Assembly (NCBI GenBank): GCA_002399225.1
Contig: DHDF01000072.1
Span: 6,948 to 13,263, forward strand
Reading direction: 5' to 3'
Length of the DNA: 6,316 nt
Source of the DNA: a bacterium UBA4883
GTDB lineage: Bacteria; Bacillota; Clostridia; Oscillospirales; Acutalibacteraceae
Positions 2-3,117 of the stretch are shown piece by piece. Every line of letters begins with the position of its first letter. Position 1 is the first letter of the stretch. The notes under the pieces are model-generated. The model saw nothing but the letters and a program-made list of their open reading frames with translations. It made no database searches and was not told the origin of the DNA. A program made the position numbers and the translations under genes.

Positions 2-448
2 ACGGTGGCCGGGGACGGCGCCCGGCAGTGGAAAAACTGCCGGGCGCGCCTCGGTACGCCGATAGGAGAAGTCCTTTCCGCCGGGGAACCGCTTCCGGAA
101 ACGGCGCTGGCCGTCGTCGGCGCTTCAGTTAACGGTAGAAGCGTCACCGATCTTTCCGGACCCGTAACGGCGACAACCCGTTGCGTTCTTGCAATGAAGC
201 GGCCGCCCCGGCGCACCGTTTTGCCCTGCATTGGATGCGGGCGGTGTCAACGGGCCTGTCCGCGCGGGATCTTGCCGTGGATGATCCTGCAGCAGATGGA
301 GTCCGGTTCCCCGGACCCGTTCCGGCTGTTCAACGTTGAACGCTGCGTCCGGTGCGAGGCGTGCAGCGTTGTTTGCCCATCTCAGATCAATTTGGCTGCC
401 GCAGTGGCGCGTGCGGAAAAATTCAAAGAAGGCAAGTGCAATCCATGA
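2..448 (+). CDS. rnfC: RnfC-like subunit, C-terminal part (5' end outside the window)
   Basis: The reading frame is open from base 2, so the N-terminal NADH/FMN-binding part lies upstream of the window. The visible part begins in the SLBB-like region (TVAGDG, then RLGTPIGEVL, as in RnfC proteins). It continues into two ferredoxin motifs of the form CxxCxxCxxxCP: CIGCGRCQRACP (cysteine codons 227-259) and CVRCEACSVVCP (344-376). These eight cysteines would carry two 4Fe-4S clusters. In the Rnf complex, RnfC is the peripheral cytoplasmic subunit that exchanges electrons with NADH. The usual GGPMMG motif between the SLBB region and the clusters reads GASVNG here, so the protein is diverged even though its cluster ligands are intact. 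Its stop overlaps the start of the rnfD-like gene by 4 bases (ATGA), which suggests translational coupling. Assignment to the RnfC family is secure; canonical activity is not, given the changes in its partners. Confidence 0.9.
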   Translation, partial: TVAGDGARQWKNCRARLGTPIGEVLSAGEPLPETALAVVGASVNGRSVTDLSGPVTATTRCVLAMKRPPRRTVLPCIGCGRCQRACPRGILPWMILQQMESGSPDPFRLFNVERCVRCEACSVVCPSQINLAAAVARAEKFKEGKCNP

Positions 449-1416
449 CCCTGACGAATGCCGCTCCCCCTTATGTGAAAAGCGAGTTTACCGTTTCTTC
501 CATGATGCACAGCATGCTGGCGGCTCTGCTGGCCCTGCTGGTCATCCCTGTCGCCCATTATGGGCTTCGTCCGCTGGTAGCCGCAGGGGCTTCCGTGCTG
601 ACCGCGCTTCTGTGCCGGATTTTATTCCGTCTGTTCCGCGGGAAGGGCGGTTCCGTCTCAGAGGCTTCGGTGCTGGTGACAGGCCTAATGGTGCCGATGC
701 TCCTGCCGCTGAATACGCCGCTCTGGCTTCCCTGCACCGCCTCCGCATTTGCCGTCCTGGTGGCCCTGGAACCGTTCGGCGGATTTGGGCGCAATCCGTT
801 TAATCCCGCCGCGGCCGGCGTGGCGTTTGTCTCTCTCTGCTGGCCGAAACGGGTGTTTTCCTATTTCGACCCGTCGCAGCCCGCATCGTTTCCGGCTTTC
901 GGCGCCGGGGTGTTCCACGTTGCCCAGTCCCCGGCAGAAATTTTGAAACAGGGTTTTAAACCGGAGATCCTCCCGCTCGACATGCTGTGGGGGAATTTCC
1001 CGGGACCGCTCGGCTCCACTTTAATCCTGGTCATTGGGGCTTGCGGCCTTCTGCTGTTTCTGACCGGGGCGGGGAAAGCGGAGACGACTCTTTGCTTTCT
1101 CGGTGCGGCTGCTCTGATTGCGGCGGCGTTCCCCCGTATCCTTTGCAGCCCGCTGACTTCCGTCAAATATGAGATTATGTCGGGCTCGCTGCTTTTCTGC
1201 TCCGTGTTTATGGTCACTGACCCGGTCACTTCGCCGCGCACGTTCCCGGGGCGGTGCCTGTACGGCGCTTTCGCCGGGGCGATGACCATGGCGTTCCGCT
1301 GGTTCGGCGCCTATGAGCAGGGCGCCTGCTTTGCGCTGCTGGTGGCAAATGCCGCGGCTCCGGTGATCGATTCCGCGGTGTTCCGGCTCCGCGGCTGGGA
1401 GGGGGCGGCTGCATGA
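445..1416 (+). CDS. rnfD: RnfD-like membrane subunit lacking the FMN-attachment threonine
   Basis: This 323-residue polytopic membrane protein belongs to the RnfD/NqrB family. The start is the ATG at 445, inside the rnfC stop overlap; the in-frame upstream codons lie within rnfC and were excluded. Family motifs are clear: FGGFGRNPFNPAAAGVAF near residues 110-128, and a C-terminal block with FMVTDPVTSP and FGAYEQGACFALLVANAAAP, matching the usual MATDPVTSP and GGYPEGV...LLMN blocks. In canonical RnfD an SGAT motif before the middle membrane segments carries covalent FMN on its threonine. The aligned stretch here is AQSPAEILKQG, so the threonine position is Glu165. No other S-G/S-A-T motif is present in the protein. 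Length is normal for the family and there is no frameshift. The fold is probably retained but flavinylation at the known site is not possible. It overlaps the rnfE-like gene by 4 bases. Confidence 0.9.
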   Translation: MTLTNAAPPYVKSEFTVSSMMHSMLAALLALLVIPVAHYGLRPLVAAGASVLTALLCRILFRLFRGKGGSVSEASVLVTGLMVPMLLPLNTPLWLPCTASAFAVLVALEPFGGFGRNPFNPAAAGVAFVSLCWPKRVFSYFDPSQPASFPAFGAGVFHVAQSPAEILKQGFKPEILPLDMLWGNFPGPLGSTLILVIGACGLLLFLTGAGKAETTLCFLGAAALIAAAFPRILCSPLTSVKYEIMSGSLLFCSVFMVTDPVTSPRTFPGRCLYGAFAGAMTMAFRWFGAYEQGACFALLVANAAAPVIDSAVFRLRGWEGAAA

Positions 1417-2057
1417 AAAAGAATCGACTGCTTCTGCGCGGGGCGGTTCAGATTTTTCTGAACGGGATGCTGTTCCGGAACCCCGTGCTGGTTGGGGCGC
1501 TTGGCATGTACCCGATTGCGGCGGCTGCGTGGAATCTGAAAAACGCCGCGGCGCTTTCCGTTCTGTTTTTGGCCCTGTCGCTTCCGTCATCGCTGGTGCT
1601 CTGCCTTTTGGGCATGTTGGTTCCGCGCTGGTTTCGCCCGGCCCTAGTCCTTTTGGTTTCCGCCGCGTTTTATGTGCCGGCGGGGCGCCTTGCGGACTTG
1701 CTGATTCCGGGTTCCGTTTCGGCCCTCGGCATGGTTGCCGGACTGATGATCTGCAATTCAATCCTCTTTTCCCGCGCGGAGGAATATGCGCCGGAGCATG
1801 TGGCGGTCGCGGTCGCGGCGGATTCCCTGGGCTGCTCCGCCGGTTTTGCACTGGTGGCGTTTCTGGCCGCGCTGGTGCGCTCGGTCTGGCTCGGGAAAAT
1901 TTCCCTTCCGTTCGCGGCCGGTTTTCCCGCGGGCCGCGCGGCCGATCTTCCGTTTGCCGGGTTTTTGCTGCTCGGCTTTCTGGCGGCTTTCCTGCAATGG
2001 GGAAACCGGCTGCGGGCGCGGCACCATGCGGAGAGAATAAGAAGGAGGATGCCGTGA
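1413..2057 (+). CDS. rnfE: RnfE-like membrane subunit with altered cluster cysteines
   Basis: This 214-residue hydrophobic protein of the RnfE/NqrD family has about six predicted membrane segments. It follows the rnfD-like gene by an ATGA overlap and has a purine-rich ribosome binding site (GGGAGGGGG, 1397-1405) 7 bases upstream. Recognisable motifs are NPVLVGALGMYP (residues 23-34), corresponding to NPxLVQLLGLCP in RnfE, and GLMICNSILFSRAEEYA (110-126), corresponding to PLIVTNCxxxGRAEAFA. In the family, the cysteine of GLCP and that of TNC help ligate an intramembrane [2Fe-2S] cluster shared with RnfA. Here the first is Tyr33. The second is Ser116, with a cysteine (Cys114) two residues earlier. 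An arginine in the later LVRSVW segment matches the conserved LRE region. A charged tail (RLRARHHAERIRRRMP) ends the protein. No rnfG lies between this gene and the rnfD-like gene, unlike the usual C-D-G-E-A-B order. Confidence 0.87.
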   Translation: MKKNRLLLRGAVQIFLNGMLFRNPVLVGALGMYPIAAAAWNLKNAAALSVLFLALSLPSSLVLCLLGMLVPRWFRPALVLLVSAAFYVPAGRLADLLIPGSVSALGMVAGLMICNSILFSRAEEYAPEHVAVAVAADSLGCSAGFALVAFLAALVRSVWLGKISLPFAAGFPAGRAADLPFAGFLLLGFLAAFLQWGNRLRARHHAERIRRRMP

Positions 2058-2644
2058 TGTTTATCAGACTGCTGTTGACCGCTTTTGCGGCGGTCGGCGC
2101 GGAAAACCTTCTGTTCACCGGCGGCGCCGGGTTCAGCCGGGCGTTGCGTTGTGCACAGCGCCCGGATACGGTCGGCATTTACGCCCTGCTGGTGACCTGG
2201 TTTACACTGCTTTCCATGTTTGCCGGCGTCTGGCTTGACCCGCTTCTGCCCGTTTCCGGGAATGCGGGGCTGGTGCGCGCTTCCTGCTTTGCGGCGGTGG
2301 CGGCGGCCGCATATGCGGTCACTTTTGTTCTACTGCGGATTGTCCTTCCCGCCTGCGCGGAAGAAAAAATCGCGCCGCTTCTGGCTCCGGCCGCCGTCAA
2401 CACCGTAGTGCTGGCGATGCCGTACCTTCGGCGGAGCTTTTCACTCGATCCGGTCCAGGCGGCCGGGTATGCGCTTGGGACCGGCGCCGCGTTCTATCTC
2501 GCGTCCGTGGTTTTGAGCCATGCGCTGGCGGTTTGCCGCAATCCGGATATGCCGCAGGCGTTTCGCGGCCTTCCCGCTTCGATCCTGTATCTTGGCATTC
2601 TCTCCATGGCGTTTGCGGGATTTGCCGGGGGAAGGGTGTTTTAA
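2057..2644 (+). CDS. rnfA: RnfA-like membrane subunit lacking both cluster cysteines
   Basis: This is a 195-residue membrane protein, close to the usual 190-195 of RnfA/NqrE. The ATG at 2057 shares one base with the rnfE-like stop and sits 8 bases after a strong AAGGAGG (2042-2048), which decides the start over the long open frame upstream. The C-terminal block PQAFRGLPASILYLGILSMAFAGFAG closely follows the family's PxxFRGxxIALITAGLMSLAFMGFSG. The N-terminal ENLLFTGGAGFSR lines up with NNFVLxxFLGLCP, putting Ser27 at the first cluster cysteine. The segment APAAVNTVVLA lines up with LITxNCAVLG, putting Thr116 at the second. Cysteines elsewhere (32, 77, 100) do not occupy these positions. In canonical complexes RnfA and RnfE are inverted-topology homologues that hold one [2Fe-2S] cluster between them. 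No rnfB follows; the next gene is a Nudix hydrolase. Family membership is sure from the C-terminus; redox function is doubtful. Confidence 0.87.
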   Translation: MFIRLLLTAFAAVGAENLLFTGGAGFSRALRCAQRPDTVGIYALLVTWFTLLSMFAGVWLDPLLPVSGNAGLVRASCFAAVAAAAYAVTFVLLRIVLPACAEEKIAPLLAPAAVNTVVLAMPYLRRSFSLDPVQAAGYALGTGAAFYLASVVLSHALAVCRNPDMPQAFRGLPASILYLGILSMAFAGFAGGRVF

Positions 2645-2646
2645 CA

Positions 2647-3117
2647 ATGGGAAACCATGCAAGCGATACGGCGGTCCGCTTTTACGCGGATGCCGATCCC
2701 TCCCTGCTGAAATACGCGGTGATCGCCGCCCGCTGCCGCGGAAAATGGGTGCTTTGCCGGCACCGGGAACGGCGGACCTGGGAAATGCCAGGCGGGCACC
2801 GCGAGCCGGAAGAAAAAATCGAACACGCCGCCCGGCGGGAACTTTTCGAAGAAACCGGCGCCCTGCGGTATGCGCTCACGCGGATCGGCGTATACTCCGT
2901 GACGGGAGAGATCAACGGCGGCAGGGAATTTTTCGGGATGCTTTACTTTGCGGAAATCGAAACGCTCGGCCCGCTTCCGCCGTATGAGATGGCTGAAATT
3001 ACTTTTCTGGACGGTCTGCCCGGGAACCTGACCTACCCGGAGATTCACCCGGCGCTGTTTCTGCGGGCGCTGCGGTTTCTCGGTGAAAAAGGGAACAACC
3101 TAAAAGGGGAGTCTTAA
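2647..3117 (+). CDS. Nudix hydrolase, YtkD-like
   Basis: This is a 156-residue cytoplasmic hydrolase with a complete Nudix box at residues 50-72: G50, five residues, E56, seven residues, then REL-F-EE-T-GA (R64, E65, E68, E69, G71). These residues bind the catalytic divalent metal that drives cleavage of nucleoside diphosphate-X substrates. The layout around the box (GKWVLCRHRERRTWEMPGG before it; a GxYxV...FFGMLYFAEIE stretch after it) resembles the YtkD group of Bacillus, which acts on oxidised nucleoside triphosphates and RNA 5' ends. Substrate cannot be read from sequence alone, so no symbol is given. The start is the ATG at 2647, 2 bases after the rnfA-like stop, with GGGGAAGGG about 10 bases upstream; the in-frame codons before it lie within the rnfA-like gene. 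The very short spacing on both sides places it in the same operon as the Rnf-like genes, though a functional link is not shown. Confidence 0.9.
   Translation: MGNHASDTAVRFYADADPSLLKYAVIAARCRGKWVLCRHRERRTWEMPGGHREPEEKIEHAARRELFEETGALRYALTRIGVYSVTGEINGGREFFGMLYFAEIETLGPLPPYEMAEITFLDGLPGNLTYPEIHPALFLRALRFLGEKGNNLKGES

Follow-up and report, generated by a model that had tools for sequence, protein, structure and literature searches.

The DNA analysed here, a window of 6,316 nucleotides from the Acutalibacteraceae bacterium UBA4883 (assembly GCA_002399225.1, contig DHDF01000072.1, positions 6,948 to 13,263 of the forward strand), raises the question of what a set of rnf-related genes can do once the cysteines that hold the membrane [2Fe-2S] cluster of the Rnf complex have disappeared from it. 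The window carries the 3' end of rnfC', followed by rnfD', rnfE', rnfA' and a NUDIX gene, the four rnf relatives overlapping by a few bases at each junction; primes denote throughout the window-type set, and canonical the ordinary Rnf. At the centre of the question stand rnfE' (1413..2057, 214 amino acids, PF02508 at 4.1e-19) and rnfA' (2057..2644, 195 amino acids, PF02508 at 7.3e-14), relatives of rnfE and rnfA without the [2Fe-2S] cysteines, which lie on the + strand as do rnfC', rnfD' and all codons located below. The same genome, which is 56% complete so that gene absences there carry little weight, also holds, on contig C109, a canonical apbE-rnfCDGEAB set in which none of the four cysteines is missing, and the window set is therefore a second, divergent one rather than its sole Rnf.

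According to the available text of the Acetobacterium woodii structure report, the four ligands of the membrane cluster are E Cys25, E Cys108, A Cys25 and A Cys113 (PMC11889175). Codon checks and alignment to the A. woodii structure sequence place Tyr33 (1509-1511) and Ser116 (1758-1760) of E' at the first two of these positions, and Ser27 (2135-2137) and Thr116 (2402-2404) of A' at the other two, Thr116 being preceded by Asn115, the retained counterpart of the Na+-site residue Asn112 (2399-2404 for the two residues, by alignment). The first-pass annotation of the window, made from the letters alone, had assigned the same four residues, and each of them held codon by codon. They are also conserved among close homologues, residue 33 of E' being Tyr in 23/27 and Phe in 4/27 with Ser116 and Cys114 invariant, and Ser27 being invariant in the 21 close A' homologues, with Thr (20) or Ser (1) at residue 116. 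The reading of E' Cys114 (1752-1754) as a ligand shifted by two did not extend to the wider family, since by codon check and alignment it sits at the position of A. woodii Val106, where Cys occurs in 20/67. For this wider comparison relatives were gathered from whole genomes and named contigs, duplicate loci were dropped and the remainder binned by best-matching seed; 68 primed loci had E' or A', and four were excluded as incomplete (L028, whose A' was spoiled by sequence trimming, L047, L049 and L105). Across 67 primed rows for each subunit, Cys was found 24 times at E25, never at E108 or A25, and 12 times at A113, so that among the 64 complete E'/A' pairs 29 had no ligand cysteine, 34 had one, one had two and none had more. 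All four cysteines were present in 29/30 canonical-bin pairs, the exception, L024, having none. The loss in the window is thus real, beyond chance and family-wide in a paralogous family, affecting both subunits as first proposed; no other cysteines restore the site, and the alignment of cysteine columns revealed no rebuilt four-cysteine arrangement at the E'/A' interface. The primed pairs likewise lack the NqrD/E [2Fe-2S] cysteines of the Na+-translocating NADH:quinone oxidoreductases (Na+-NQR; NADH, reduced nicotinamide adenine dinucleotide).

In the known Rnf, electrons from the cytosol reach the outer face by way of RnfB, the [2Fe-2S] cluster and RnfG, all of which are required. No RnfG or RnfB match was found in the fetched stretch of any of 79 primed loci (duplicates included). 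Both were present in 26 of the 30 canonical-bin loci, and all of C, D, G, E, A and B in 20; the loci without one or both of G and B in the stretch were L021, L022, L024 and L140, of which L022 (genome G025) is a four-cysteine RnfD-E-A locus in a short stretch with no match to either. With the cluster site gone and no RnfB or RnfG gene at the locus, a transmembrane electron loop by the primed proteins is very unlikely, judging from the sequences and the known complex.

The cytosolic side is better preserved. The part of rnfC' inside the window (2..448, 148 amino acids, open at the window edge; NCBIfam rnfC at 1.4e-24 and 4Fe-4S Pfam families) is the ferredoxin-type end of an RnfC relative, the upstream part of which lies past a run of N in L005, and its two [4Fe-4S] motifs, CIGCGRCQRAC (227..259) and CVRCEACSVVC (344..376), were confirmed by codon check. 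All eight ferredoxin-type cysteines are kept in 32/32 complete C' of relatives; the C' of L044 is split over two frames in its contig. Upstream of the motifs, in a region outside the window and hence known from the C' of relatives, the loop for flavin mononucleotide (FMN) and NADH, in canonical proteins GLGGAGFPT or GxGGAGFPT, is missing from all aligned primed C', where a DExDGxPL-like motif mostly takes its place, and is present with at most small changes in 20/20 canonical C.

The product of rnfD' (445..1416, 323 amino acids, PF03116 at 4.3e-68) is an RnfD/NqrB relative with the RnfD chains 7zc6_D and 9eri_D as its closest solved relatives. It had been claimed that, with the changes in this subunit, every known membrane redox site testable in the window is gone, which proved too strong: by alignment and codon check D' retains Asn120 (802..804) and Asp259 (1219..1221), the counterparts of the A. 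woodii riboflavin-site residues Asn123 and Asp249, and has Ser162 (928..930) at the column of the FMN-bearing Thr156. The motif recognised by ApbE is missing around Ser162. Ser occupies the acceptor column in 61/66 D' and also in 8/28 canonical D; the full motif, D-x-x-[ST]-x-A-[ST], is found in 0/66 D' vs 13/29 canonical D, and the Ala preceding the acceptor is kept in 5/66 and 29/29, respectively. As the motif is also absent in 16/29 canonical D, its absence in D' is weak evidence. ApbE accepts Ser, and single changes in the motif weaken the reaction without abolishing it, those at the acceptor excepted, as far as the consulted sections of the source describe it (PMC12052999). The canonical RnfD of the window's genome (L006:5322-6284) likewise has Ser rather than Thr at this column (TTASPL). 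Given the retained C' motifs and D' residues, a cytosolic-side redox stub, consisting of the C' [4Fe-4S] motifs and the D' riboflavin residues, may remain.

The primed set is under purifying selection. The ratio of nonsynonymous to synonymous substitution rates (dN/dS) of C', D', E' and A' was 0.06-0.33 over nine primed genome pairs, 0.15-0.22 between the window and its two nearest relatives (L008 and L027) and 0.085-0.091 in one canonical pair, values that are rough at a dS of 0.2-1.2. In three genomes that are 93-99% complete (G069, G121 and G095) the primed A'/E' pair represents the only PF02508 proteins, and no RnfB (PF04060) match was found in them. ApbE is nonetheless present in all three, without canonical Rnf; a search for FMN_bind proteins gave one match in G069 and none in G121 or G095, and D' is one candidate client of ApbE in such genomes. 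In G121, apbE lies next to genes for a TrmB-type methyltransferase and a tRNA-editing domain (L145 3906-6415), with rnfCDGEAB gone; the canonical locus of the window's genome has the same two kinds of neighbour beside apbE, and the arrangement in G121 looks as if the canonical rnf had been deleted there. Since the primed set is retained in relatives, including three that have no normal Rnf, it has likely been repurposed.

Our preferred reading, to which we would give a probability of roughly 40%, is that C'D'E'A', a conserved Rnf offshoot, would work as a redox-gated ion path rather than as a redox-driven pump. The wider proposition that D'E'A' transports ions or solutes and forms a transporter class of its own, derived from a redox pump that shed its electron path, with C' kept as a gate or dropped by lineage, falls a little short of an even chance. 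In the gated form the C', D', E' and A' proteins would assemble into one complex, where C', its NADH/FMN loop gone, would be reduced by a carrier in the cytosol, for instance ferredoxin, and hand the electrons to the riboflavin of D'; the redox state of this stub would then switch E'/A' between inward- and outward-facing states, opening or closing a path for Na+ or H+, and in lineages devoid of C' the D'E'A' trio would operate without redox control. In A. woodii the A/E pair constitutes the Na+ path, and removal of the [2Fe-2S] ligands abolishes ferredoxin:NAD+ activity and autotrophic growth, as given in the available text (PMC11889175). By alignment, E' Arg75 (1635..1637) corresponds to RnfE Arg67, which belongs to the Na+-site ion pair, and E' Glu123 (1779..1781) to its partner Glu115, both being kept in the window. 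Arg67 is kept in 62/67 primed E' and Asn112 in 65/67 primed A'; Lys32 of A is kept in 4/67, with Arg there in 34. Pfam makes the membrane subunits homologues of RnfA/E and RnfD, and an Rnf fold is predicted for E', whose single-chain model (predicted local distance difference test, pLDDT, 80.6) keeps both discontinuous helices and has 9eri_E as best match in the PDB (template modelling score 0.71/0.77), the top 17 matches all being A, D or E chains of Rnf or NQR. The A' model (pLDDT 68) was too weak to read and was not used.

Several observations weigh against the gated path. Glu115 is kept in 31/67 primed E' and in just 8/36 where C' is present, and other ion-path residues of A have been lost, with Glu88 kept in 0, Thr110 in 1, Thr111 in 0 and Tyr105 in 2 of the 67 rows. 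The riboflavin residues Asn123 and Asp249 are kept in 30/36 and 31/36 D' with a C' partner and in 4/25 and 17/25 without one, a contrast that is suggestive only: Fisher's test for the association of C' with Asn123 gave 2.6e-7 with kinship ignored, there are only two to three independent contrasts, and a tie between the loss of C' and that of Asn123 was not significant once kinship was allowed for. The retention of ApbE in genomes without canonical Rnf, in two of which no FMN_bind protein was found, means that D' might still carry FMN. The L022 locus keeps its four cysteines and yet shows no G or B, so that a missing neighbouring rnfG need not signal a changed function. Finally, some lineages keep D'E'A' alone, which makes redox control dispensable for the conserved function.

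These trio-only lineages bring forward the strongest alternative, that D'E'A' acts as a transporter or channel with no redox function at all, maybe serving the envelope together with a DUF4015 protein, with the C' clusters structural or in side use. No C' precedes D' in L085-L104, L046, L048 and L051-L053, where no same-strand upstream frame with a ferredoxin-type motif was found; where the stretch is long enough, these loci usually consist of rpe, often an opposite-strand MecA-like gene (a call from a Pfam run on one protein), and then D'E'A'. A search of 20/25 trio genomes with a window-type C' as query never placed the best RnfC match beside D'E'A', although a far-diverged C' could escape it: in 17/20 the best match shared a contig with the canonical RnfA match, in G116, G120 and G145 it was a frame of 447-522 amino acids elsewhere, and further C' matches were short, ferredoxin-like and below 33 bits. 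A DUF4015-type gene (putative glycosyl hydrolase; assigned by a Pfam run on three such proteins) follows A' in 24/43 loci, e.g., L091, L098 and L101, and its products show, by eye, an N-terminal charged stretch and one hydrophobic stretch; that such a product replaces RnfG as the outer partner is a guess. The retained Asn112 and Arg67 suit a non-redox path equally. The eight C' cysteines, kept in 32/32, and the riboflavin residues would in contrast be needless in a non-redox complex, and the window locus has a NUDIX gene, not DUF4015, after A'. A plain non-redox transporter comes close to the redox gate in likelihood and fits the trio-only lineages better, even if, taken as an account of its own, it stays on the unlikely side. 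Of the non-redox use of the scaffold put forward in the first-pass annotation, the part that stands is conservation of the set for another role; a use with no redox function at all is the best match for lineages without C', not for that of the window.

Distinctly less probable is a shortened redox enzyme, in which electrons would pass only between the C' clusters, the D' riboflavin, perhaps with FMN on the Ser, and a substrate or quinone, E'/A' serving as scaffold. The kept clusters, riboflavin residues and acceptor Ser would agree with such an enzyme, as would the retention of ApbE where canonical Rnf is gone; D'E'A' nevertheless persists without C', the ApbE motif is missing in 66/66 D' (a weak point, given the canonical D without it), and in the supposed scaffold two residues of the ion path rank with the best conserved.

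That the primed proteins help or decoy the canonical Rnf, by mixed complexes, assembly or control, is quite improbable. Canonical Rnf does occur in the window's genome and in many primed genomes, but G069, G121 and G095, which hold the primed pair with no other PF02508 protein and no RnfB, make a mixed complex unlikely, and the RnfB-facing Arg154 of RnfA is kept in only 2/67 primed A'. More doubtful still is a metal site rebuilt by new cysteines at the E'/A' interface. Near the window cysteines are indeed conserved, in E' at Cys64 (26/27), Cys114 (27/27) and Cys141 (25/27) and in A' at Cys160 (18/21), but in each of these columns Cys occurs in fewer than half of the 67 family rows, Cys160 aligns to A. 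woodii residue 157, between the RnfB-facing residues 154 and 158, and the A' of L102, L115 and L122 have no cysteine at all in their first 200 residues. A decaying remnant, which the stepwise loss of parts might recall, is the least probable alternative in view of the dN/dS values and of a gene order and key residues that are conserved throughout an order.

Compared with Rnf (RnfCDGEAB, ferredoxin:NAD+ oxidoreductase; A. woodii 9eri, Clostridium tetanomorphum 7zc6), the primed set has homologous C, D, E and A in the same order, an E with the same fold according to the model, the two C [4Fe-4S] motifs, the D riboflavin-site residues, Arg67(E) and Asn112(A); it differs in its loci without RnfB and RnfG, in the absence of the membrane [2Fe-2S] cysteines, in a C' without the FMN/NADH loop and in a D' without the ApbE motif. 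Na+-NQR (NqrABCDEF), with homologous B, D and E, is also an Rnf descendant minus RnfB, described as arising from a duplicated rnf operon by loss of rnfB (PMC4014512, in the portion available). Unlike the primed set, it has retained both NqrC and the [2Fe-2S] cluster and has acquired NqrF as input subunit; its NqrA is free of redox cofactors, in contrast to C' with its two [4Fe-4S] motifs (PMC12174285 for NQR, from the sections at hand). The nearest named relatives of the window genes are from Caproicibacter, and Caproicibacter and Oscillospiraceae database entries ("Rnf-Nqr domain containing protein", RnfE/RnfA) represent these same proteins, at mostly 50-90% identity; they are labelled as electron transport subunits, by domain or as hypothetical, and the labels are silent on the missing sites. 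Among the open-access literature matches listed, no title or abstract opening describes an Rnf-like family without the [2Fe-2S] cysteines, and the available portions of the Rnf/NQR papers cited here describe no such copy (PMC11889175, PMC12174285, PMC4014512). The coupling of electrons and Na+ in Rnf and NQR is disputed, including the ion route via A/E vs D (PMC11889175, as far as its available text goes). A natural family with A/E, D and a partial ion path but no [2Fe-2S] site, and with neither RnfB nor RnfG at the locus, would allow the ion path to be studied apart from electron flow and, if the transporter reading is true, would represent the Rnf ion path in a naturally uncoupled form. Current annotation counts primed genes as Rnf, and an automated reading could credit the three primed-only genomes with Rnf energy conservation.

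Within the family sample of 150 genomes, 48 (the window's included) had an A'-profile match better than 1e-34 among the matches listed, and in the fetched subset of these 40/40 were of the primed type. Outside the family, where the A'-profile score alone does not separate the types (verified canonical loci reach 1.1e-36), the primed type was found in families f5 and f26, and in f7 as L024 and its relatives. In the D tree the canonical rows fall on one side of a branch with full support (Shimodaira-Hasegawa-like approximate likelihood ratio test, 100). The L024 lineage (genus g28; L024 and L178-L180) has the order C-D-E-A-DUF4015 with no G or B adjoining, no membrane cysteines, a lost C loop, Asn at the FMN acceptor and the riboflavin residues kept. 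Its D was grouped with canonical D in the first tree; placement with the primed rows has the higher likelihood (approximately unbiased test, p-AU 0.717), a second origin of the cysteine-less state in g28 is thus not claimed, and the lineage may be an early branch of the primed family. The E subunit of L178-L180 is encoded by a frame of 503-510 amino acids, in which a long, charged N-terminal extension precedes the RnfE-like region.

Upstream of the window, on the same contig, lies rpe, for ribulose-phosphate 3-epimerase, whose orthologue in L027 matches TIGR01163 at 8.8e-74; an rpe-type gene was found in 27/29 and 35/44 stretches of relatives, not all of which extend far enough to include it. 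A conserved motif, AACCGCTTNATCATAGAT, occurs at L005:4960-4977 and upstream of rpe in several genera, followed by a hairpin in some relatives, and it goes with rpe also where rnf' is absent. No RNA families were found in L005, L027 and L112, and Rex sites upstream of rpe showed no general excess over shuffled sequence. The published Rex site for rpe of Caproicibacterium lactatifermentans is a form of AACCGCTTNATCATAGAT, and that gene is listed as up on lactate in the part of the study available (PMC9600882). A lead from there to expression of rnf' on lactate was rejected: in the genome with the exact upstream site (G493, 1/398 searched), the gene after rpe is of the spoVT type, and the 8.5-kb stretch contains no rnf' gene. 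On the other side of the set, 3' of rnfA', the NUDIX hydrolase gene (2647-3117) belongs to a cluster present in 3/29 loci compared, the window's included.

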